Assembly: GCF_040712075.1 (NCBI RefSeq)
Contig: NZ_JBFCVL010000001.1
Location: 379,501 to 443,500 of the forward strand
From: Fodinicurvata sp. EGI_FJ10296
GTDB taxonomy: Bacteria; Pseudomonadota; Alphaproteobacteria; DSM-16000; Inquilinaceae
DNA: 64,000 bases
Direction of reading: 5' to 3'
The first letter of the stretch is position 1. Each line of letters starts with the position of its first letter. Below the pieces are notes generated by a model. The model had not been told where the DNA came from. It ran no database searches and was given only the letters and a program-made list of their open reading frames with translations. Shown here piece by piece: positions 10,437-23,491 of this stretch. Made by a program: the position numbers and the translations under genes.

Positions 10437-13024
10437 CGGCCATCGCCGGCGAAGAATCGGCCCGTTCATTATCCCGGCGGGAGCGCCATGCGCGGGCCGA
10501 GCCCGGACTGCTTCAGGCTGTCAAGCTGGCACGTCGCGAGCTACGCGGCGGCCTTGCCGGATTTCGGATATTCTTCGCCTGTCTCATTCTGGGCGTTGCC
10601 GCCATCGCCACCGTGCAATCCGTCTCGTCGGGCATTCTCGACACGCTGCAGGACGACGGCCGGGCCATTCTCGGCGGCGATATCGCCGCCCGGACCCAGT
10701 TCACCGACATTACGCCCGATCAGCTTTCGGCCCTGAACGACATCGCCGAAACGGTGTCGTCCACGACCCAGATGCGGGCGATGGCGCGCGACCCCGAAAG
10801 TGGCGACGCGATTCTGGTCGATCTCAAGGCCGTGGACGAACCCTATCCGCTCTATGGTGCGATGGAATTGCGTGGCGGCGGCAGTCTGGACGACGCGCTG
10901 GCCGAACGCGGCGGGACGAGAGGCGCCGTGATCGAATTGCCGGTCGCAGCAAGGCTGGGGGTCGAGGTCGGCGACACGATCACGCTCGGCGAAGCCGGTT
11001 TCGAAATCCGCGACATCATCGTCGCCGAACCGGATCGCGCCGGCGGCGCCGGATTCGCCTTCGGTCCCCGCGTCATGATCGCCGACGCCGGATTGGCCGC
11101 CACCGATCTGATCCGCGAAGGATCGATGATCGACTATTACCATCGGCTGCGGCTGCCTGAAGGTCTGTCGGCAAGCGCCGCCGAGGAGGCGCTGCGCGCA
11201 GCCGCGCCGGACGCTGACTGGCGTCTGCGGACCTTCGACCGGGCGTCACCGTCACTGGAACAGATCGTCCAACAGATCACGCTGTTCCTGACCCTTGTCG
11301 GCCTGACCGCCCTGCTGGTCGGCGGTGTTGGCGTCAGCAATGCGGTCCGTGCCTTCGTCGAAGGCCGCACCCCGACGATCGCAACATTGAAATGCCTTGG
11401 CGCCACGTCGCGGCTGATATTTCAGACCTATCTCATTCAGGTTCTGGTCCTTGCCACCGGGGCCATCGTGATCGGGTTGGCCATTGGGGCCGCGACGCCG
11501 CCTCTGGTCTCGACGCTGCTCGCGGACCTCCTGCCGTTTTCGCTGCGCACCGGGGTGTACCCCGGAGCCCTGGCGATCGCGGCCCTGTTCGGTCTGCTGA
11601 CGGCCCTCACCTTCTCGCTTTGGCCGCTGGCGCGAGTGCGCGATGTTTCCGCCGCCGCCCTGTTCCGCGAGGCCGGAGGGACCCTTCGGGGTTGGAGCCG
11701 CGGGGCGGTCGCGGCCGTCGCCGTTTCCGGTCTCGCCCTTGCGGGGCTGGCGATCGGCACCGCCCGCGATCCCGAATTCGCCGCATGGTTCGTCGTCGGG
11801 TCCCTGGCAACGCTGGTCGTCTTCCGCCTGATCGCCGGTGTGGTCGTTGCTTCGACGCGCCGTCTGGGCACGATCCACCGGCCGCTGGTACGACTGGCGA
11901 TGGCCAATCTCAATCGCCCGGGCGCGCCGACGGTGAACGTGGTCCTATCCCTTGGCCTCGGGGTCACCGTGCTGGTGGCCATCGTCCTGATCGAAGGCAA
12001 TCTGAAACGGCAGATCGAGGGCGATTTGCCCGACCGGGCGCCCAGCTTTTTCTTCGTAGACATCCAGGCCGACCAGCGTGACGCCTTCGTCGACACGGTC
12101 TCCGCTTTCGAGGGCGTCTCGGACCTTCGCGACGTTCCGTCGCTGCGCGGCCGGATCGCCGAGGTCAACGGCGTCCCCGCAGAGGATGCGCTGGTGGATG
12201 GCGCGTCGGGATGGGTGGTGCGCGGCGATCGGGGCGTTACCTATGCGGCCGAGCCGGAGAACCGGGACATCGTAGCTGGCGACTGGTGGGCACCGGATTA
12301 CGCCGGGCCGCCGCTGGTCTCGATATACAGCGATATCGCGGAGGCCTTCGCGATCGGTGTCGGCGATACCATGACGGTCCGCATCCTCGGACGCGACATC
12401 GAGGCTGAAGTCGCCAATGTCCGCGACATCGACTGGGGCACGCTTGGAATCAATTTCACCATGGTCTTCTCGCCAACACCGCTGAACGCGGCGCCGCATA
12501 CCTATATCGCCACGCTTCACGCTGCCGACGCGGCGACCGAGACTGCCCTGCAACGCGCCGTCGCAGCCGAATTCGGCAATGTGACCACGGTCAATATCCG
12601 GCAGGCGCTCGACACCTTCGGCAGTATCCTGGAGCGGCTGATCGTCGCCGTACGCGCCATTGCGGCGGTGACGATCGTTGCCGGAACGCTCGTGCTCGCC
12701 GGCGCGGTCGCCGCCGGTCACCGCCGGCGGGTCTACGAGGCCGTCGTCCTCAAGGTTCTCGGCGCGACCCGAGGAAAGATCCTGCGGGGGTACGCTCTCG
12801 AATACGGACTGATGGGGCTGCTAACCGGAATCGTTGCCGCGGTCCTGGGGACGCTGGCGGCGTGGATCGTGGTGACCCAGGTCATGGACCTCGACTGGGT
12901 CTTTCTGCCGCTGACCATTGTCGCGACCACCATTCTGTGCATCGTCATAACCGTGGCGCTCGGATTCGTCGGGACATGGCGGGCGTTGAGCCGCAAGGCC
13001 GCGCCCCTGCTGCGCAACGAATGA
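10433..13024 (+). CDS. ybbP: ABC transporter permease, FtsX/MacB type (YbbP-like)
   Basis: 863 residues starting at the ATG of the ATGA overlap with ybbA. After a basic cytoplasmic stretch there is one transmembrane helix (IFFACLILGVAAIATVQSV), a large periplasmic domain (about residues 60-270), then helices including LFLTLVGLTALLVGGVGVSN and VLVLATGAIVIGLAIGAA. A second periplasmic domain and three final helices follow. This duplicated FtsX layout with about ten helices is characteristic of the YbbP group. The tesA neighbour suggests a role with lipids or acyl compounds at the inner membrane, but this is inference. Confidence 0.92.
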   Translation: MTAIAGEESARSLSRRERHARAEPGLLQAVKLARRELRGGLAGFRIFFACLILGVAAIATVQSVSSGILDTLQDDGRAILGGDIAARTQFTDITPDQLSALNDIAETVSSTTQMRAMARDPESGDAILVDLKAVDEPYPLYGAMELRGGGSLDDALAERGGTRGAVIELPVAARLGVEVGDTITLGEAGFEIRDIIVAEPDRAGGAGFAFGPRVMIADAGLAATDLIREGSMIDYYHRLRLPEGLSASAAEEALRAAAPDADWRLRTFDRASPSLEQIVQQITLFLTLVGLTALLVGGVGVSNAVRAFVEGRTPTIATLKCLGATSRLIFQTYLIQVLVLATGAIVIGLAIGAATPPLVSTLLADLLPFSLRTGVYPGALAIAALFGLLTALTFSLWPLARVRDVSAAALFREAGGTLRGWSRGAVAAVAVSGLALAGLAIGTARDPEFAAWFVVGSLATLVVFRLIAGVVVASTRRLGTIHRPLVRLAMANLNRPGAPTVNVVLSLGLGVTVLVAIVLIEGNLKRQIEGDLPDRAPSFFFVDIQADQRDAFVDTVSAFEGVSDLRDVPSLRGRIAEVNGVPAEDALVDGASGWVVRGDRGVTYAAEPENRDIVAGDWWAPDYAGPPLVSIYSDIAEAFAIGVGDTMTVRILGRDIEAEVANVRDIDWGTLGINFTMVFSPTPLNAAPHTYIATLHAADAATETALQRAVAAEFGNVTTVNIRQALDTFGSILERLIVAVRAIAAVTIVAGTLVLAGAVAAGHRRRVYEAVVLKVLGATRGKILRGYALEYGLMGLLTGIVAAVLGTLAAWIVVTQVMDLDWVFLPLTIVATTILCIVITVALGFVGTWRALSRKAAPLLRNE

Positions 13025-16365: not shown

Positions 16366-17373
16366 TTAACCGGCGGGACTGCCTTTTACGGCCTCGTCGG
16401 CGGTTTCAGGTTCGCGTTTCTCCATGCGGAGATACTGGACCAGTTCGTCCTGCAGATCGTCGCGAATGCGATCGGGATGGGTGATCTGCAGATAGAACAG
16501 GGTGAAATAGTTCACCTTCACCCAGGTGACCCCTCGCGCGACGATGATGCTGCCCGCCTTGCCCAGGAAGGCCGCAACGAACAACGGGACGACCGAGATC
16601 ACAAGAGCGCCGTCGGTCAGCAGGAAGTCCGGCAGTTCACCGCCGCCGACCGGAAAGGCGCCCGACGGCAGGACCGACGCGAGGTACCACGACAGGAAGA
16701 TCGCCAGCGGCACCATGACCCCATAAATCGGAGCAGCGAGGGCGGCGGCGACGCGGCCGAACAGGTCGATGCCGAAGACGCCGGCCAGCGTCGCCGGCAC
16801 CCGGTCGCGCAGTTCCTTGATGCGGCCGATGGACTCCCGGATCGACAGGCCGTCGATCGCGATGGCCGGCAGCACATAGTGACTGACCAGATCCCATACC
16901 TCGAGAAATCCGGACAGGATCAGATTAATCAGCCCGCCCGACTTCCGGTTCCGCGCATATTTCGCGTACGCCATGGCGATATCGAGCAGCGCCAGGCGCC
17001 AGACCGCACCACCGTGGCTGGTGTCGGCGGCCGCAGCCGATGCGTCCCCGGCCACAATCCGCCGATGAACGATCGCACTCTGGCGAAGCTCCGATCCGAT
17101 GAAGTAGAAGAATTTTCCGAACCAGAGGACCGCGGCGGCCAGCAGCACCAGCCAGGACGTTCCCCAAAGCGCGTTGTCCTGCACGAGCACCGCATGCATC
17201 GCCATCCCCAGACCGGCAAGGAATACCGCGGCCTGAACGATGCCAAGGATCGAGGTCGTCACCATGGGCTTCAGGATCGACCAATCCGCACCGACGATCG
17301 TTACCGAATTCTTTATCAGGTATCCGATGTTCTGGATGCGATCGGTAAGGGGAATGCGTCGAAGATTGTCCAT
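16366..17373 (-). CDS. Uncharacterised polytopic membrane protein
   Basis: 335 residues. Soluble N terminus (MDNLRRIPLTDRIQNIGYLI), then hydrophobic segments near residues 38-60 (VTTSILGIVQAAVFLAGLGM), 73-95 (WLVLLAAAVLWFGKFFYFIG), 150-165, 205-235 (GRVAAALAAPIYGVMVPLAI) and 255-285. The C-terminal tail is hydrophilic and acidic (LQDELVQYLRMEKREPETAD). Between the second and third segments lies a loop with SELRQSAIVHRRIVAGDA. The overall layout resembles bacterial membrane proteins of unknown function that accompany no fixed partner. No catalytic motif was found. It follows purH on the same strand but in its own unit. Confidence 0.75.
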   Translation of the reverse strand: MDNLRRIPLTDRIQNIGYLIKNSVTIVGADWSILKPMVTTSILGIVQAAVFLAGLGMAMHAVLVQDNALWGTSWLVLLAAAVLWFGKFFYFIGSELRQSAIVHRRIVAGDASAAAADTSHGGAVWRLALLDIAMAYAKYARNRKSGGLINLILSGFLEVWDLVSHYVLPAIAIDGLSIRESIGRIKELRDRVPATLAGVFGIDLFGRVAAALAAPIYGVMVPLAIFLSWYLASVLPSGAFPVGGGELPDFLLTDGALVISVVPLFVAAFLGKAGSIIVARGVTWVKVNYFTLFYLQITHPDRIRDDLQDELVQYLRMEKREPETADEAVKGSPAG

Positions 17374-17573: not shown

Positions 17574-19703
17574 TTACTCGGCCGCCGCTGCCTGCCCTTC
17601 CTCGACCGCCGTCATGCGTATCACCCTGTCGGCGGTATCAATGGTTTCCTTGCGGTGAGCAATGGCGACGCGGGTGATCCCCATCGACTTGATCACCTCG
17701 CTGATCCGGTGCTCGTTGTCGACGTCGAGATGGCTGGTCGCCTCGTCCATGAACAGGATCTTCGGCTTGTGATAGAGGGCGCGCGCAATCAGAATGCGCT
17801 GTTTCTGTCCGCCGGAAAGACTGCTGCCCAGATCGCCGACCAGCGTCTGGAAGCCCATGGGCATCTTCATCACCTCTTCGGCTATCGATGCCGCCGCGGC
17901 GCATTGGACGGCCAGTTCCATGTCCGGCGTGTCGTCGAACATTGTAACATTGTCCAGAATACTGCCGGCAAACAGTTGGTCGCCCTGCGATACAATGGCG
18001 ATGTCGTCGCGAAAATTGCGCACTCCATAGTCATAGATATTGACACCATCGACCAGCACCAAACCGGATGTCGGGCGCATCAATCCTGTCATTATTTTCA
18101 TCAGGGTTGTTTTCCCGCAACCGGACGGTCCGGTTACGGCAACATATTCACCCTTCTCTATTTCGAACGACAGCTCTTTTATGACTGGCGCCTCTTCTTC
18201 GTGATATCGGAAGGTAAGATTGTTTACGGATATATTACCTTCAATCCTGCTCATCTTTCCGCGTTCTTCATCGTTACTTCTTTCCGGCGGTTCGATCACG
18301 ATATCCGAAACACGATGCAAGTGCAGCTTCAGCATCCGGAATTCGATCGCTTTGTCGATGAAGGCCAGCGCCGCATCCGAGAACTGCTGCCGGTACGAAA
18401 GGAAGGCATAGAGCATCCCGACGGTCAGATCGTTCTCGATCACCAGCAAGACGCCGATCCAGACCAGGGTGACATGTTCGGCGCCCGTGACGAACATGCT
18501 GAGCGATCGATAGAAGATCCGGATCCGCTCGACCTTGACGCCGGAACTGATTTCGTCGGCAAATTTGTTCTTCCAGCCAGAGGTCCGGATCGGCTCGTGA
18601 TTGAAGCTGCGGATCGTCTCCATCGCCCGCGCGGATTCAAGGAAATGGCTGTCTTCCTTGGCGCCGTTGATGATTTCCTCTTCCATGAGGCGCCGAAGCG
18701 GACGGATCAACACGGCCCTGACCGTGCCATAAAACATCACGACGCCAACCGCGACGGCCGTCAACGTCCACGAGTAATAGGCCATGACGACGACAACGGT
18801 CAGCACCACGATACCGTCTACGACTGCTTCGACGAAGCCGTTGGTCAGAACGCGGTTGATCTCCCGCAGCGAGCCGAATCGCGAGACGATATCCCCGACA
18901 TGCCGCTTGGCGAAGAACGTCAACGGCAGCCGCATCAGGTGGTTGAACAGATTGTTGGCCAGCTGGAAGTTTAGCTGAGCACCGACAAAGGCGACGACCC
19001 ACCCTCTGAGGGCAAAGGTTAAAGCTCGGAAAAAGTGAATCGCCAGGAAACCCAGACCGAGCACGAGCAGCAGATCTCGGTCCTGGCTCAGCGCAACCTC
19101 GTCGATGGCCAGCTGAACGAAATAGGGTATGACCAGCGCGAAAGCCTGAATGAACAGCGACAGCAGCAGGACCTTGCCCAAAGTCGCGATCAAGCCCTGG
19201 GAATGCTGCCAGAGCGAGCGAATGGTTACGTCGTTGCTGGCCTTGACCTGCTCGAAATCGGCGTTGGGCGAGAACTCGACGGCAACACCGGTGTAGCCGT
19301 CGGAGAGCTCGTCGAGCGTAAGATGACGTTCGCCCTGCGCCGGGTCATGAATGATGGCCTTGTTGCGCGTAATCTTGCGCAAGACGACGAAGTGATCGAA
19401 GCCCCAATGCAGGATGGCCGGCAACTGGATTCGCGGGAGGGCATGCAGGCCGACCTTCATCGGCCGGCCACTCATCTTCAGGCGCTGACCAATGGCCAGC
19501 AGGCTCTTCAGATTGGTCCCCCGCAGCGATGCCGGAAACTTCTGCCGTAGCGTCTCGACCGTCGTCTCATAGCCATGATACGACGCGACCATGGCCAGGC
19601 AGGTGATCCCGCATTCCGAACTTTCGGTCTGGTGATAGATCGGCAGCCTTGGGTAGAACCGGAAGTGCAACCGGTCGAAGACTCTCTTTTCAGCAACCAT
19701 CAC
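17574..19703 (-). CDS. Peptidase C39-containing ABC exporter for double-glycine peptides
   Basis: 709 residues: a bacteriocin-processing exporter of the CvaB/LagD kind. It cleaves precursor leaders after Gly-Gly and pumps the product across the inner membrane. Residues 1-140 are the C39 protease with Q25 (oxyanion) and C31 in YHQTESSECGITCLAMV, H104 in FDHFVVLR and D120 in IIHDPAQ, so the triad is intact. Transmembrane helices span about 165-440. The NBD has Walker A VTGPSGCGKTT, signature SLSGGQKQRI and Walker B ILFMDEATSHLD. The gene overlaps the HlyD adaptor gene by ATGA and is last in the cassette, which also holds four GG-leader precursors. Confidence 0.96.
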   Translation of the reverse strand: MMVAEKRVFDRLHFRFYPRLPIYHQTESSECGITCLAMVASYHGYETTVETLRQKFPASLRGTNLKSLLAIGQRLKMSGRPMKVGLHALPRIQLPAILHWGFDHFVVLRKITRNKAIIHDPAQGERHLTLDELSDGYTGVAVEFSPNADFEQVKASNDVTIRSLWQHSQGLIATLGKVLLLSLFIQAFALVIPYFVQLAIDEVALSQDRDLLLVLGLGFLAIHFFRALTFALRGWVVAFVGAQLNFQLANNLFNHLMRLPLTFFAKRHVGDIVSRFGSLREINRVLTNGFVEAVVDGIVVLTVVVVMAYYSWTLTAVAVGVVMFYGTVRAVLIRPLRRLMEEEIINGAKEDSHFLESARAMETIRSFNHEPIRTSGWKNKFADEISSGVKVERIRIFYRSLSMFVTGAEHVTLVWIGVLLVIENDLTVGMLYAFLSYRQQFSDAALAFIDKAIEFRMLKLHLHRVSDIVIEPPERSNDEERGKMSRIEGNISVNNLTFRYHEEEAPVIKELSFEIEKGEYVAVTGPSGCGKTTLMKIMTGLMRPTSGLVLVDGVNIYDYGVRNFRDDIAIVSQGDQLFAGSILDNVTMFDDTPDMELAVQCAAAASIAEEVMKMPMGFQTLVGDLGSSLSGGQKQRILIARALYHKPKILFMDEATSHLDVDNEHRISEVIKSMGITRVAIAHRKETIDTADRVIRMTAVEEGQAAAAE

Positions 19704-20950
19704 TCGAACCTTCCGGTGACGTCCTGGATCGGCTTCATCACCCAGTCGAATACCGACAGCGGCTGGCTTACGAGATCGACCTCGACGCCCATGCCGGGCA
19801 GCATCGGGAACACGCCGTCCCGCGTGATGACGTTCTGTTCGTCGATATCAATTCGCAGTCGGTATACGGCCGTCTGGAATTCGGCGGTTGCCGGATGGTC
19901 GCCCGGGCGCAATGTCGTATCGGAAATGTAGGTGACCTCGCCGTCGAACGTTCCATAACGCTGATAGGGAAAGGACGGAAACTTGATATCCACATCCTGG
20001 CCCAGGGAAACGCCGCCGATAGCCGCCGCCGGAACGAAGACTTCGGCTTCCAGCAATGACCAAAGCGGCAGCAAGGTCATGACGGGTGCGGCTGCGGAAA
20101 CCGGGCTGCCGACGCTGGCAAGCATCGTTGTCACCCGCCCGTCGATTGGCGCCGCCAGTGTCTGGGTCAACTGTGATCGTCGTTCGATGGAAAGCTGCCG
20201 TGTCGTCAGTATTTCGCGATCGATCTGGACTTGAGCCCGGGCCAGTTCCTGCTGCGTTTGGGAAAGCTGATGCTCCAACGTCGCCTGTTCCGCCCCGTTC
20301 CTGGCGATCTCGATCTCTTTAACCCGGACGGCACTTTGAAGCGCGCTCAGTTCATCTTCTTCGGTTCGCAGCGCCGATTGGCTCAGGATACCCTGGCGGG
20401 CCAGACGTTCACGGCCAGCGAACCGCTCGCGCGCGTTGACCAGTTGCTCCTGCAGGGATTCCAGTTCCGTAGCGAGAAGGTCATGCCCCAGTTCCAGAGC
20501 ATTCATGCGTTGTTCGGCAATATTGATTTCGGCCTCCAGGGACCGCTCGATCATTGCCCTCTCGCGCTCAAGGGAAGCGATCAGATTCTCCGCTTCGCTC
20601 AGCCACGCTTCACCCCAGCGGCGCCCACCATCCAATGAATTCTGATAGGAGACGACCATCAACGGATCGCCGGCTTCGACGACACTGCCATCCTCGACGA
20701 ATGTCTCGATGACGACACCATTGCCTTCCGGGAATACCTTGGCCGTGCCATCCTGGGTAACGAGTTGGCCGGCGGCACCGGATCGGGGCCGATAATCCGC
20801 AAACGCAAAAAAGGTTCCGAGTGCGGTGACTAGCATAAGGACGATAGCAGCCAGCCACCAATTACTTGCGTTCGACGCAATTAAAACATTTCCATTGAGT
20901 CGATTTAAATATGCCTTGCGTGCTTTTTCTCTGAATAGATTTTCATTCAT
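19700..20950 (-). CDS. HlyD-family periplasmic adaptor of the peptide exporter
   Basis: 416 residues from the ATG at 20950; a TTG at 20965 would add five residues. The N-terminal cytoplasmic part (about 34 residues) is followed by one membrane helix (WWLAAIVLMLVTALGTFFAF). A split biotinyl-lipoyl-like domain (GNGVVIETFVEDGSVVEAGD) comes next, then a long coiled coil (about 120-260, rich in LESLQEQLVNARERF-type heptads). The beta-barrel part includes APIDGRVTTMLASVGSPV and PGMGVEVDLVSQPLSVFDWV. It would link the C39 ABC exporter to an outer-membrane channel; no TolC homologue is encoded in the window. Overlap of 4 nt with the exporter gene implies coupled translation. Confidence 0.94.
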   Translation of the reverse strand: MNENLFREKARKAYLNRLNGNVLIASNASNWWLAAIVLMLVTALGTFFAFADYRPRSGAAGQLVTQDGTAKVFPEGNGVVIETFVEDGSVVEAGDPLMVVSYQNSLDGGRRWGEAWLSEAENLIASLERERAMIERSLEAEINIAEQRMNALELGHDLLATELESLQEQLVNARERFAGRERLARQGILSQSALRTEEDELSALQSAVRVKEIEIARNGAEQATLEHQLSQTQQELARAQVQIDREILTTRQLSIERRSQLTQTLAAPIDGRVTTMLASVGSPVSAAAPVMTLLPLWSLLEAEVFVPAAAIGGVSLGQDVDIKFPSFPYQRYGTFDGEVTYISDTTLRPGDHPATAEFQTAVYRLRIDIDEQNVITRDGVFPMLPGMGVEVDLVSQPLSVFDWVMKPIQDVTGRFE

Positions 20951-21011
20951 TGAGCGACCTGTCAATTAAAGCATTTTCTAACTCTATTATTATTATAAAG
21001 CGACGTTGTAT

Positions 21012-21042
21012 AGGGGCTACCGTACACGCAACGATAGCCCCT
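21012..21042 (-). promoter_or_regulatory. Stem-loop between the last precursor gene and the hlyD-like gene
   Basis: Inverted repeat AGGGGCTA/TAGCCCCT (21012-21019 and 21035-21042) with a 15-nt loop, in the 106-bp gap. No T-run follows on the minus strand, so it looks like an attenuating or transcript-stabilising hairpin, not a full terminator. A TATAAT-like element (minus strand 20997-20992) lies just beyond it and could give the export genes some transcription of their own. Confidence 0.5.
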
Positions 21043-21056
21043 TCGATCGGTACCGA

Positions 21057-21218
21057 TTACATGATCACCGGCCCAGGGATCGGCCCCGGAACCGGGTAAG
21101 GCCCCGGAATCGGATACGGGCCCGGAATCGGATACGGGTATACCGGCAGCAGTTCGGCGGCTCCGCCGCTGACGACTTCGATCTCTTGATCGGTCATCAC
21201 GTCAATCTGGTTTTCCAT
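21057..21218 (-). CDS. Double-glycine precursor peptide 1, alternating X-Pro core
   Basis: 53 residues from the ATG at 21218, with AAGGATGTCACC upstream. Leader MENQIDVMTDQEIEVVSGG fits the classical double-glycine consensus (hydrophobic-x-x-x-E-I-x-x-V-x-G-G). The predicted mature peptide is 34 residues, begins AAELLPVYPYP, and from its residue 9 to 31 every second residue is proline (13 prolines in all) in YPIPGP-type hexapeptides. It has no cysteine, no Arg and no Lys. This is unlike cationic proline-rich antimicrobial peptides. It should be processed and exported by the C39 exporter encoded 1.4 kb downstream. Its activity is unknown. A longer frame back to 21359 is open but has no family features before this ATG. 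Confidence 0.85.
   Translation of the reverse strand: MENQIDVMTDQEIEVVSGGAAELLPVYPYPIPGPYPIPGPYPVPGPIPGPVIM
21066..21140 (-). repeat. Short tandem repeat coding the Pro-rich core
   Basis: Imperfect direct repeats of an 18-bp unit (of the form GGCCCGGAATCGGATAC on the plus strand) encode the successive YPIPGP, YPIPGP and YPVPGP blocks of precursor peptide 1, ending in a shortened IPGP block. Unit-number changes would lengthen or shorten the peptide in frame. Confidence 0.7.
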
Positions 21219-21346
21219 GGTGACATCCTTGGCTTGGACGTGACGGACCGGGATCCTGCGGTGTCGCCGCGATGGACGCGACGGAACAGCGTCACACTGG
21301 GGCCACACCGTGGTGGTGTTCATCCCGGCCTGAGGCGTACCATCGA

Positions 21347-21388
21347 CGGAAGACGGCATTCAGCAATCTGCCGGTTGCGCGTCTTCCG
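21347..21388 (-). promoter_or_regulatory. Stem-loop in the 263-bp gap between precursors 2 and 1
   Basis: A 9-bp stem (CGGAAGACG/CGTCTTCCG, 21347-21355 and 21380-21388) with a 24-nt loop. The gap around it (21219-21481) has no supported gene. Its presence at an intergenic position of the precursor series suggests a transcript processing or stability role. Confidence 0.35.
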
Positions 21389-21481
21389 CCGATCGTATAG
21401 TCTGTTTGAAGATTGGGTTCGGAACCGCGTCATGTCCCTGATGGCACCGTACCAAATCTCCAGTGGTGATCTATTGGGTCG

Positions 21482-21628
21482 TTAGCCCCAGATCAGATCA
21501 CCGATGTCGTTGCCGACTTCCTTGCCGAACTGGTACCATTCGCGGGGATTCAGGATGTCCCAGGCGCTTCCGCCGTCGACCATGTCGATCTCGGCAACCG
21601 TCATGGCAACGATGTCGTTTTCCATCAT
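21482..21628 (-). CDS. Double-glycine precursor peptide 2
   Basis: 48 residues from the ATG at 21628, with AAGGAGATCGAAC immediately upstream, a very good ribosome-binding site; a second ATG is the next codon. Leader MMENDIVAMTVAEIDMVDGG resembles that of peptide 1. The predicted mature peptide of 28 residues begins SAWDILNPREWYQFGKEVG and ends in IGDLIWG. It has three Trp, no Cys, and an acidic to neutral amphipathic character. Position between precursors 3 and 1 supports a real gene. Its function as microcin, partner peptide or signal is unknown. Confidence 0.83.
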   Translation of the reverse strand: MMENDIVAMTVAEIDMVDGGSAWDILNPREWYQFGKEVGNDIGDLIWG

Positions 21629-21677
21629 GTTCGATCTCCTTGGAAAAGGTTGTTGATCTGTTGGTCGCTACAACTGA

Positions 21678-21845
21678 TTAGTTGTTCTCTTTGTAGCTTT
21701 GGGCCAGGCCCACAGCGACGCCGCCCAGGAAGATGCCGCCGGCGATGATGCCGCCAACGCACACGCCGCCACAGACGACACCGCCGTCGACTTCGGCGAT
21801 TTCGTCGCTGTTCAGGTCGGAGATCTGGTTTTCAACATGGCTCAT
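21678..21845 (-). CDS. Double-glycine precursor peptide 3, CxxxC and glycine-zipper core
   Basis: 55 residues from the ATG at 21845, preceded by ATGGAGACCACC. Leader MSHVENQISDLNSDEIAEVDGG (22 residues). The 33-residue core begins VVCGGVCVGGIIAGGIFLGG and ends AQSYKENN: a hydrophobic helix with repeated GxxxG spacing and two cysteines (C25 and C29). The GxxxG content is typical of membrane-inserting class IIb bacteriocins. The cysteine pair is the only one among the four precursors, so it is the best candidate client of the DsbA/DsbB pair encoded upstream in the same cassette. Confidence 0.87.
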   Translation of the reverse strand: MSHVENQISDLNSDEIAEVDGGVVCGGVCVGGIIAGGIFLGGVAVGLAQSYKENN

Positions 21846-21904
21846 GGTGGTCTCCATTACTTGGTGGTTCTGACAACCGACAGATGCACCTCACATTTGC
21901 CGGT

Positions 21905-21949
21905 GCGGGCTTGGAACTCGCCCGCTAAGTACCGGCGCGAATGCGCCGG
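21905..21949 (-). promoter_or_regulatory. Two adjacent stem-loops between precursors 4 and 3
   Basis: CCGGCGC-GAAT-GCGCCGG (21932-21949) is a perfect 7-bp hairpin with a tetraloop, and GCGGGC/GCCCGC (21905-21910 and 21920-21925) is a second one. Neither is followed by a T-run. They separate precursor 4 from precursor 3 in the transcript, as often seen where peptide genes need higher message levels than flanking genes. Confidence 0.45.
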
Positions 21950-21968
21950 ATCCCATATGACGCCGATT

Positions 21969-22139
21969 CTACAGCTGGGGCTGACCCGCAGTGCGCAGGA
22001 GCCGGATCAGTTCTTTTGCGGCATCGATAATGCCACCGCCTTCAATCTCGGAAACTTCCTGGGCGGTCAGAGGCCGCACGGCCGTCTCGGCGTCGTCGTT
22101 CTTGATGGTTGAAGTGTTTTTTGTTTCATTGGTATTCAT
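21969..22139 (-). CDS. Double-glycine precursor peptide 4, long leader
   Basis: 56 residues from the ATG at 22139, with TTGGAG 8 nt upstream. The leader is long (35 residues, MNTNETKNTSTIKNDDAETA... then VRPLTAQEVSEIEGG), and its last 12 residues match the double-glycine pattern. The predicted mature part is only 21 residues, GIIDAAKELIRLLRTAGQPQ plus Leu, an amphipathic cationic helix with no Cys. A second GG-like bond occurs within EGGG, so cleavage could shift by one residue. Found between the small membrane peptide gene and precursor 3. Confidence 0.8.
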   Translation of the reverse strand: MNTNETKNTSTIKNDDAETAVRPLTAQEVSEIEGGGIIDAAKELIRLLRTAGQPQL

Positions 22140-22188
22140 GAGAATACTCCAAATCTTTATTGATGATATTTCTTAAATAACTTTCACG

Positions 22189-22305
22189 TTACTTAAAAAA
22201 TATCGTATACATGGCGTTGCCAATGGTGATTCCCGAAGCAAAAAGGACGATCCCACCAAATATTGACAACAGGACTATGACCGACGTTGGGAGATTGATA
22301 TCCAT
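22189..22305 (-). CDS. 38-residue hydrophobic membrane peptide, candidate immunity protein
   Basis: The ATG at 22305 is preceded by AAGGAGGTAGAAA, the strongest Shine-Dalgarno sequence in the cassette, which itself overlaps the dsbA stop codon. The peptide starts MDINLPTSVIVLLSIFGG, continues IVLFASGITIGNAMYTIFFK, and is one almost continuous transmembrane helix with a final lysine. It has no leader of the double-glycine type and no Cys. Small membrane peptides next to microcin precursors commonly give immunity, so that is the leading guess. It could instead be an accessory subunit of the exporter or of DsbB. Confidence 0.72.
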   Translation of the reverse strand: MDINLPTSVIVLLSIFGGIVLFASGITIGNAMYTIFFK

Positions 22306-22316
22306 TTTCTACCTCC

Positions 22317-22922
22317 TTACTGAATGGTTGTTAGATGATCAAGCAATAATAATAGGTTATCATTGCCCCTTGCACGTGCCGGATCGGAGAAAAATTTGTC
22401 ATTTACGACAACAGCCGGAATTGCTCGTATTCTGTTTTCCAGTAGCCAAGCTCGTATTTCGTCTTCGCGATCACTAACAGCCCCACTTGAGTACGTTTCT
22501 TCAATCAAAACAGTCTGTTCGTCGCTAATCGGTAGTGAATCTATTAAAGCGTCTACGTCATCTGCTTCCACATCATTTTCGTGTATAGCTGTAAACAACG
22601 CAGTTATATTATCTTCTTGGTCATTGTTGGTTTCTTGCATCGTAATAATAAGGCGCCCAAGTTCAGCCCATTGATCTTCGTGGAAGAAGGGCACTCTCAC
22701 GATATACAAGTCGTTCTCGTCTGCCCAGGCTTTGAGACCGTCTTCCAATCGATAACAATGCGGGCATGCAGGCGAGAAAATATTGACGACACTATCCTCG
22801 GAAGCACCGAAGGGTTCACTCAATTCTTCATAATGGACCCCTTCAACGGGTTGCTGAGCTTCAGCAACATTAGCCAGGAGTGCTAACACGAACGCTGAGT
22901 AAGAGAATTTTCCAATTTTCAT
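22317..22922 (-). CDS. dsbA: DsbA-family thiol:disulfide oxidoreductase of the peptide cassette
   Basis: 201 residues from the ATG at 22922. Signal peptide MKIGKFSYSAFVLALLANVAEA (cleavage near residue 22). The thioredoxin-fold active site is VVNIFSPACPHCYRLEDGLK with the CPHC motif of E. coli DsbA. The helical insertion and the cis-proline loop RIRAIPAVVVND follow. It donates disulfides to periplasmic proteins. Its start overlaps the dsbB stop by ATGA, so the two are coupled. The gene is AT-rich and rich in ATA and AAT codons compared with the housekeeping genes nearby, consistent with transfer. Confidence 0.93.
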   Translation of the reverse strand: MKIGKFSYSAFVLALLANVAEAQQPVEGVHYEELSEPFGASEDSVVNIFSPACPHCYRLEDGLKAWADENDLYIVRVPFFHEDQWAELGRLIITMQETNNDQEDNITALFTAIHENDVEADDVDALIDSLPISDEQTVLIEETYSSGAVSDREDEIRAWLLENRIRAIPAVVVNDKFFSDPARARGNDNLLLLLDHLTTIQ

Positions 22923-23428
22923 TTCGCAACTCTCCGATGAAAACCTGAGGCGACGCCAACTATCGCAAAGCCTGTACACGCAATTCCAAGACCCAAAGCA
23001 CCATAGTCGAAAGCGATTGAGATCGGTCGGTCGCCGCATAGCGCACGGACTTCGAATAACCACGGCGCCAATGTTTCGAGAGGCAACCAGTGCGGGAACG
23101 GTGAGCCAAAGCCGCAGGCAAAAACTTCACCGAATGCATTATTGAAACTCTGCCAAAGTAACACTAGGGACGAAATAAATACAAATGTTGTGACAATTCT
23201 ATTATTATAAACAATACCAAACAGAGAGAAGAAGAATGCTGCGGCTACACATAGTCTGATTATGACACATTTTTGGCACGGCTGTATATCGAATGCATGC
23301 TGTGATACGAGCGCAATTACAAGAGCGGCGCCAGATAAGATTGATATTATAAAGTATACACTTCCGGTTTGGAATGTAGTCACTTTAGTTTTGATCTCTT
23401 CAATACTAAAGAAGCTTGAGATTAACAT
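22919..23428 (-). CDS. dsbB: DsbB-family quinone-dependent disulfide oxidoreductase
   Basis: 169 residues from the ATG at 23428 (MLISSFFSIEEIKTK), which has GGAAG nine bases upstream. A GTG at 23476 would add 16 residues but lies within the likely promoter. Four transmembrane helices are visible. The first cysteine pair is FDIQPCQKCVIIR (compare KPCVLCIYER in E. coli). The second is in FACGFGSPFPHWLPLETLAP and VRALCGDRP, matching the E. coli loop in spacing and in FPxWLPL. It would reoxidise the neighbouring DsbA using ubiquinone. The gene is markedly AT-rich. Confidence 0.93.
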   Translation of the reverse strand: MLISSFFSIEEIKTKVTTFQTGSVYFIISILSGAALVIALVSQHAFDIQPCQKCVIIRLCVAAAFFFSLFGIVYNNRIVTTFVFISSLVLLWQSFNNAFGEVFACGFGSPFPHWLPLETLAPWLFEVRALCGDRPISIAFDYGALGLGIACTGFAIVGVASGFHRRVAK

Positions 23429-23461
23429 CTCGTTAACTTCCCGATAATCTGTCTTGATATG

Positions 23462-23491
23462 AAGATTGTCACGCACAGATAGTTATGTCAA
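23462..23491 (-). promoter_or_regulatory. Candidate promoter of the dsbBA-precursor-exporter cassette
   Basis: Perfect TTGACA at minus-strand 23491-23486, 18-nt spacer, AATCTT at 23467-23462. Transcription from it would start near 23455 and leave a leader of about 27 nt before the ATG at 23428, agreeing with the chosen dsbB start. The -10 matches the consensus at only three positions. Confidence 0.35.

Follow-up and report, generated by a model that had tools for sequence, protein, structure and literature searches.

Gene content and layout of the cassette

We have analysed a stretch of 64,000 nucleotides from the genome of Fodinicurvata sp. EGI_FJ10296 (referred to as the window), in which the open reading frames and their translations revealed nine genes that lie on the minus strand between positions 17574 and 23476 and point in one direction. 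They encode a DsbB- and a DsbA-like oxidoreductase, a small membrane peptide, four peptide precursors whose leaders end in a double glycine (GG), a HlyD-type adaptor and a C39 peptidase-ABC exporter. The observation itself is confirmed: the set and its order are all present as had been claimed in an earlier reading made from the letters alone (the sequence-only reading), which took the genes for a multi-peptide class II microcin cassette with its own disulfide system. That interpretation as a whole is partly supported. The features are listed here from dsbB onward (aa, amino acids; TM, transmembrane; nt, nucleotides; GC3, G+C content at third codon positions):

22919..23476, minus strand: dsbB, 185 aa, GTG start, CQKC and a later C...C pair, GC3 0.41
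22317..22922, minus strand: dsbA, 201 aa, CPHC active site, likely signal peptide (judged by eye), GC3 0.39
22189..22305, minus strand: tm38, 38 aa, single TM segment, without GG leader, AAGGAGG upstream
21969..22139, minus strand: pepA precursor, 56 aa, leader ...LTAQEVSEIEGG, amphipathic core of 21 residues
21678..21845, minus strand: pepB precursor, leader ...LNSDEIAEVDGG, 55 aa if started at the second ATG and 59 aa if started at 21857
21482..21628, minus strand: pepC precursor, 48 aa, leader ...MTVAEIDMVDGG, acidic amphipathic core of 28 residues
21338..21397, minus strand: long RNA hairpin (inverted repeat I18) inside the 263-nt gap between pepC and pepD
21057..21218, minus strand: pepD precursor, 53 aa, leader ...MTDQEIEVVSGG, proline-rich core with PGPYP repeats
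19700..20950, minus strand: HlyD-type periplasmic adaptor, 416 aa, Pfam HlyD_3 65.4 bits
17574..19703, minus strand: C39 peptidase-ABC exporter, 709 aa, Pfam C39 117.4 bits

The C39 peptidase, the ABC membrane and ATPase domains, HlyD_3 and DsbB all score above their Pfam cut-offs. ATGA overlaps had been proposed for both ends of the cassette; the one between dsbB and dsbA exists, whereas hlyD and the exporter gene overlap by GTGA (or TGATG, if the start is the second codon). The ribosome-binding sites claimed for the small genes were recovered in our own reading as a Shine-Dalgarno-like stretch ahead of all five, and such a stretch also precedes dsbA and the exporter gene, that of hlyD being weak and that of dsbB poor. 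The precursor listed with 59 aa, pepB, is likewise present, but it most likely starts at the second ATG, because GGAG sits between the two ATGs, and then measures 55 aa. Its core consists of VVCGGVC followed by a glycine-zipper hydrophobic segment. Scans for promoters and terminators gave nothing above chance, and Rfam at gathering scores had no match anywhere in the window.

The double-glycine leader is found in all four small precursors that adjoin the exporter. A strict motif, [LM][TNSD]xxE[IVL]xx[VI]xGG, which was composed after the four leaders had been seen and is hence fitted to them, occurs four times in the six frames of the window, always in the four precursors and nowhere outside them; 100 composition shuffles yielded 0.01 occurrences on average. 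With a looser motif the count rises to five, of which one lies outside the cassette, while 0.78 would be expected.

The exporter had been credited with an intact Cys/His/Asp triad, and indeed it keeps Q25, C31, H104 and D120, together with the Walker and signature residues that we examined; these we take to be the residues on which the peptidase and the ATPase depend. In an alignment of 26 exporters Q, C and H are present in every sequence, and D in 23, with N in the remaining 3. Besides the exporter of the cassette no second C39 domain was found in the genome. Three sites elsewhere in the genome, beyond the window and unlinked to the cassette, encode proteins of the OEP family, so that, with the HlyD adaptor next to the exporter, both an adaptor and a TolC-type channel are available. 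As far as can be judged from sequence, the leaders, exporter, adaptor and channel of a class II microcin cassette are all present, with tm38 as the candidate for the immunity gene, and we consider it on balance probable that the genes form a type I secretion operon of the colicin V type, which exports several GG-leader peptides and includes a disulfide step of its own.

A colinear cassette in Saccharospirillum salsuginis

An exporter scan of named genomes returned 40 loci, and in 13 of these the match extends over the C39 part as well (the 27 that match only a part of the exporter were not counted). The best relative, with 69% identity, is that of the gammaproteobacterium Saccharospirillum salsuginis (locus L013), and there the gene order is colinear: dsbA, a TM peptide, three GG precursors, hlyD and the C39 exporter gene. 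The DsbA proteins are 48% identical over 174 residues, the Saccharospirillum one having CHYC as active site, the HlyD proteins are 45% identical, and the 39-aa TM peptide (tm39), which occupies the same place as tm38, is 44% identical to it over 36 residues. Both the exporter tree (26 rows) and the adaptor tree (25 rows) group the two cassettes as sisters, at 100/100 support. Moreover, pepB and the three Saccharospirillum precursors share VDGG/[FV]VCGGxC, with the predicted cut at the slash, followed by a glycine-rich hydrophobic core. Over 19 pepB-type codons the cassettes differ at 3-5 first, 3-4 second and 6-11 third positions, and such a dominance of third-position differences is expected if the sequence is translated and under selection. 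pepB just reaches the cut-off of the Pfam family Bacteriocin_IIc (PF10439; 27.2 versus 27.1 bits), for which pepA, pepC and pepD gave no match.

The cassette DsbA scores just below the Pfam DSBA cut-off (25.4 versus 25.6 bits), and a two-member DsbA profile matches solved DsbA structures with a best E of 3.2e-17. DsbB is well above its Pfam cut-off (54.1 versus 22.1 bits) and matches the solved DsbB 3e9j weakly (E 7.5e-4), both cysteine pairs being in register as judged by eye. Cysteines among the GG precursors of both cassettes are confined to the pepB type, with two per core. Within 149 loci we found eight different leader-bearing peptides with two cysteines 2-8 apart in the first 16 core residues, and CGGxC occurs only in pepB of the window and in the three Saccharospirillum precursors. 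A DsbA near a C39 exporter was found in 2 of 57 neighbourhoods of 3.9-22 kb (the window, the 13 named loci, 41 other exporter places and places in genomes G314 and G001), namely in these same two; the sole further match of the scan, a short reading frame in L024 with E 0.014, was not counted. The combination of DsbA and CGGxC is thus rare in the sampled genomes, and both cases agree. Because cysteines occur only in the pepB type and DsbA lies, among the exporters scanned, next to only these two, the enzyme would act on that type, most likely by closing the CGGxC pair of the glycine-zipper peptide.

The sequence-only reading had DsbA and DsbB jointly assist at least one of the peptides. For dsbA this gains strength from Saccharospirillum, where the gene again adjoins CGGxC precursors, but dsbB falls outside the conserved core, since the Saccharospirillum locus contains no DsbB match and the single match in that genome is on another contig. 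Nor did any of 40 other genomes with such an exporter have a DsbB match at less than 10 kb from it, the nearest being 10.2 kb away (in G482, by eye). The three DsbA loci that rank next in the Saccharospirillum order (L109-L111) lack a C39 exporter in the 14-15 kb covered. Plasmid records hold only three distant relatives of the cassette DsbA (28% identity) and none of pepB or pepD, and viral contigs scanned with the DsbA and pepB alignments gave no confirmed relative.

The TM peptides resemble the pepB-type cores. The score of tm39 against the core of the third Saccharospirillum precursor (56) was reached by none of the 684 TM-like segments of the fetched loci, and those of tm38 against the same core (39) and of tm39 against the core of the window (36) by 3 each. 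When sequences were shuffled, 0.3-2.1% of the shuffles reached the scores of tm38 against the four pepB-type cores and 0% that of tm39 against the third Saccharospirillum core. One GxxxG is kept in a joint alignment of five sequences. This likeness hints that tm38, which lacks a leader, could be related to the toxin helix or mimic it; by position and likeness it is the sole immunity-gene candidate in the cassette, and it may serve as immunity or escort factor of pepB.

Relatives near C39 exporters were found for pepB (the three in Saccharospirillum) and for pepD (one), whereas pepA and pepC had none in the 86 other stretches compared. The best 14-residue helical moments of pepA and pepC were reached by 17 and 14 of 5000 shuffles, respectively, and the cores of pepC and pepD carry charges of -3.5 and -1.2. 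The pepD relative, from genome G160 of the same class, is 53% identical over 43 residues, has a GA-type leader and lies upstream of HlyD-C39. Ahead of HlyD-C39 its locus (L053:8811-11705) encodes five or more peptides with GG or GA leaders, which include one rich in proline, one with a glycine zipper and one with two cysteines (CPWWDIWC); genes nearby resemble, by eye, a histidine kinase and a LuxR-type regulator. At least two genomes thus encode mixed sets of GG peptides in which a glycine-zipper peptide is accompanied by a proline-rich one. GG-leader peptides of other kinds were also seen: two with long GGNGGN-type glycine repeats flank a C39 exporter in G314 (L056:7092-7280 and 12055-12327), and one in G172 (L055:12276-12545) has a His/Asn-rich core that is possibly metal-binding.

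The gap between pepC and pepD folds, over its whole length, with a z-score of -4.57, 0 of 200 shuffles being as stable, and the arm of its hairpin has a single copy in the window. The hairpin might set the levels of precursors versus exporter; an attenuator, a processing site or the relic of a mobile element are all possible.

GC3 is low in dsbB and dsbA (listed above), 0.54 in tm38, 0.65-0.80 in the precursors, 0.66 in HlyD and 0.75 in the exporter, with values of 0.72-0.79 in four neighbouring genes; the corresponding Saccharospirillum genes all have 0.62-0.72. The low-GC end of the cassette, dsbB-dsbA-tm38, may have arrived later or from another donor. On the flank a gene at 16366-17373 encodes a membrane protein without Pfam family. 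It was found in one of 17 genomes of the family, its own, which suggests that the flank may also be recent, and an insertion site was not visible in the family. A neighbouring acetoacetyl-CoA synthetase-like protein has its best plasmid relatives, among the matches listed, in Azospirillum and Sinorhizobium (60.7-62.2%), which makes an alphaproteobacterial host probable.

In a comparison of the exporter with plasmid records 871 matches reach E 1e-100 or better, all with less than 60% identity; the plasmid-borne exporters among the 30 matches listed are 40.6-44.0% identical to that of the cassette and include a Moraxella catarrhalis plasmid protein (43.9%) and another that is annotated as MchF (41.0%). 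In G296 (G296:C1:1482884-1484989) the C39 exporter gene has one in-frame TGA, so that either the gene is defective, the sequence contains an error or the codon is recoded. The next exporter in the tree, from Pleionea sediminis (L014:7263-9965), is preceded by HlyD, a radical S-adenosylmethionine protein and a GG-type precursor that ends in DAFLRFLRFRRVIIIIAQDM. This locus is a cluster for a ribosomally synthesised and post-translationally modified peptide with a C39 exporter, perhaps of the cyclophane kind.

Proposed maturation of the peptides and alternative explanations

Considering the leader motifs and the catalytic residues observed, the precursors would bind to the C39 domain of the exporter and be cut after GG, upon which the cores would leave by way of the exporter, HlyD and a TolC-type channel that is encoded elsewhere. 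In the periplasm DsbA would close the CGGxC pair, whose invariant cysteines begin two residues after the cut, which would produce a glycine-zipper membrane helix with a loop of five residues at its N-terminus. DsbA would be recharged by the cassette DsbB in the window and by a housekeeping DsbB in Saccharospirillum. By analogy with glycine-zipper bacteriocins and with TMcin (see below), the finished helix might insert and oligomerise in the inner membrane of a target, and tm38 could conceivably stay in the membrane of the producer and block oligomerisation there, as immunity or escort factor. pepA, pepC and pepD would be co-exported partners or separate weapons. The predicted monoisotopic masses of the mature peptides are 2275.34 Da for pepA, 3118.59 (oxidised) or 3120.61 Da (reduced) for pepB, 3277.58 Da for pepC and 3537.90 Da for pepD. 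Taken further, this leads to a proposal that we put forward tentatively: a separate family of ribosomally made Gram-negative peptides, i.e. glycine-zipper microcins clasped at the N-terminus by the CGGxC disulfide, matured by a DsbA of the same cluster and neutralised in the producer by a leaderless mimic of the toxin helix, encoded in a dsbA-TM peptide-precursor-hlyD-C39 unit that moves between alpha- and gammaproteobacteria.

Several results weigh against the secretion operon with a dedicated disulfide step. The cassette DsbA was not refound in 385 genomes of the same class (E 1e-15), in 398 genomes of the phylum or in 244 genomes of Saccharospirillum's order (itself counted), samples that overlap in part. 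In the phylum sample 104 genomes, including the one with the cassette, match DsbA at E 1e-10, the next best with 74.5 bits versus 406 for the cassette DsbA, which is part of the search model; among the genomes of Saccharospirillum's order the runner-up has 88.5 bits. The coupling of DsbA to pepB consequently rests on two cases. The Dsb enzymes of a microcin PDI producer, which are E. coli's own, were reported to be dispensable for the activity of that GG-leader peptide, of which the first two cysteines are needed (PMC5311971). dsbB, pepA, pepC and pepD have no counterpart in the Saccharospirillum cassette; its pepB relatives remain below the Bacteriocin_IIc cut-off (23.6, 20.0 and no match), and two or more GxxxG were found, by simple count, only in pepB of the window and in two of the three Saccharospirillum cores. 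As to tm38, the other five of the eight pairs of TM peptide and core have scores that 12 to 69 of the 684 segments reach, and 9, 33 and 18% of shuffles reach those of tm39 against the core of the window and the first two Saccharospirillum cores. The profile comparison of TM peptides and pepB cores (79.6%, E 1.5e-5) is a single one between 2 and 4 sequences, and hydrophobic glycine-rich helices can resemble each other by chance. Finally, the low GC3 of dsbB-dsbA-tm38 implies that the history of the cassette is mixed.

The exported peptides could also be signals or surface or biofilm peptides that do not kill, with export and disulfide step as described above, an alternative that we regard as possible though not probable. 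The core module is common to two genomes of different classes, a kind of sharing that is common for bacteriocins, and pepB, besides its glycine-zipper hydrophobic core, meets (barely) the Bacteriocin_IIc threshold, whereas the lack of a classical multi-TM immunity gene in the cassette, the acidic cores of pepC and pepD and the gonococcal nap peptides, whose GG motifs go together with a reported failure to kill competitors (PMC11798529), would fit non-killing peptides. Somewhat less likely, in our view, is a contact-dependent system in which the peptides are kept as aggregates on the surface of the producer, as in Caulobacter, an alphaproteobacterium like the present host, where CdzC and CdzD are glycine-zipper peptides served by a type I exporter (PMC5380434). 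The window has a single glycine-zipper peptide, with a core of 33 residues, and a three-TM protein like CdzI was not seen in the cassette.

Two further alternatives concern individual genes. We think it unlikely that tm38 is itself a product, as leaderless toxin or membrane partner of pepB, instead of an immunity factor: the GxxxG helix that it has in common with the pepB cores, despite its lack of a GG leader, would suit such a role, but products of this export pathway generally require a leader, and tm38 and tm39 are each present as a single copy by dsbA whereas the number of precursors varies. That DsbB and DsbA are passengers, i.e. general oxidoreductases serving other periplasmic proteins, seems to us quite improbable. 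Their GC3 is indeed far under that of the rest of the cassette, and the genome has five other DSBA-family matches; however, Saccharospirillum likewise has dsbA, the TM peptide and the CGGxC precursors side by side, with protein identities of 44-52%, which points to selection for keeping them linked, and among the 57 C39 exporter neighbourhoods only these two have a DsbA. Our preferred explanation remains the secretion operon with its own disulfide step.

Comparison with known systems

The export of GG peptides by C39 and HlyD proteins has long been known, for instance for colicin V. Colicin V-type cassettes (MccV, MccH47, Neisseria nap) likewise combine a C39 exporter with GG-leader precursors, and most of them also have a HlyD-type adaptor; unlike those, the present cassette has a dedicated dsbA and dsbB, four unrelated cores and a CGGxC loop, and no classical immunity gene was seen in it. 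The gonococcal nap island was considered as a match on account of its GG peptides and C39 peptidase and rejected, as the main text of its description mentions no dsb genes, disulfide or HlyD (PMC11798529). An assignment to the NHLP export system was dismissed as well, the exporter scoring 484.8 bits versus a TIGR03796 cut-off of 853.3.

The Cdz system of Caulobacter crescentus resembles the cassette in its alphaproteobacterial host, type I exporter, glycine-zipper peptides and small membrane immunity protein (for which tm38 is the candidate here), and differs in that its five named genes include no oxidoreductase; as described, CdzC (86 aa) and CdzD (84 aa) work together, and CdzI has three TM segments (PMC5380434). 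We did not assign the cassette to this system, since it has one glycine-zipper precursor of 55-59 aa instead of two of about 85 aa and, by eye, only the 38-aa single-segment peptide in place of a CdzI-like three-TM protein.

The clusters of the glycocins sublancin and pallidocin are reported to contain a precursor, a SunT-like peptidase/ABC transporter, a thioredoxin-like BdbA and a DsbB-like BdbB, but they are Gram-positive and have a glycosyltransferase, and their peptides carry a glycosylated Cys and at least two disulfides (PMC6405829). No S- or O-glycosyltransferase is present among the nine genes, and the assignment was dropped. TMcin, also Gram-positive, is described as a peptide that forms pores, has a single TM helix and carries one disulfide, which is needed for killing; in staphylococci a cluster-encoded DsbA with a CPHC site makes this disulfide (PMC13252029), and a small escort protein in the membrane is proposed to stop the peptide from oligomerising with itself (PMC13252029; PMC12328743). 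According to the same descriptions its leader is cut by an intramembrane zinc protease, export is by TmcBC with no C39 involved, and the loop is C-terminal (PMC13252029; PMC12328743). The cassette has a C39 exporter instead and no DUF3267 among the families listed (for the exporter, the best 25 of 28), and was not placed with TMcin.

Among the matches listed from the open-licence literature, no cluster-encoded Dsb pair with a GG-leader/C39 system in a Gram-negative species was described, which is weak evidence of absence, and a search of the same literature for C39 together with glycine zippers listed nothing relevant. The statement of the sequence-only reading that no Gram-negative system with such a content had been described agrees with the literature searched, but it left the close analogues, i.e. 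glycocins, TMcin and Cdz, unnamed. Few class II microcins have been characterised, ten by the published counts (PMC9746304, PMC11494933). With an oxidoreductase of its own, the cassette offers a direct test of peptide oxidation before release in a Gram-negative producer, and if tm38 does mimic the toxin helix, immunity would be achieved by an unusually small principle of a single gene. Thus, set against the known systems, the exporter and the GG peptides are familiar, and the new core is the CGGxC glycine-zipper peptide together with its own DsbA.

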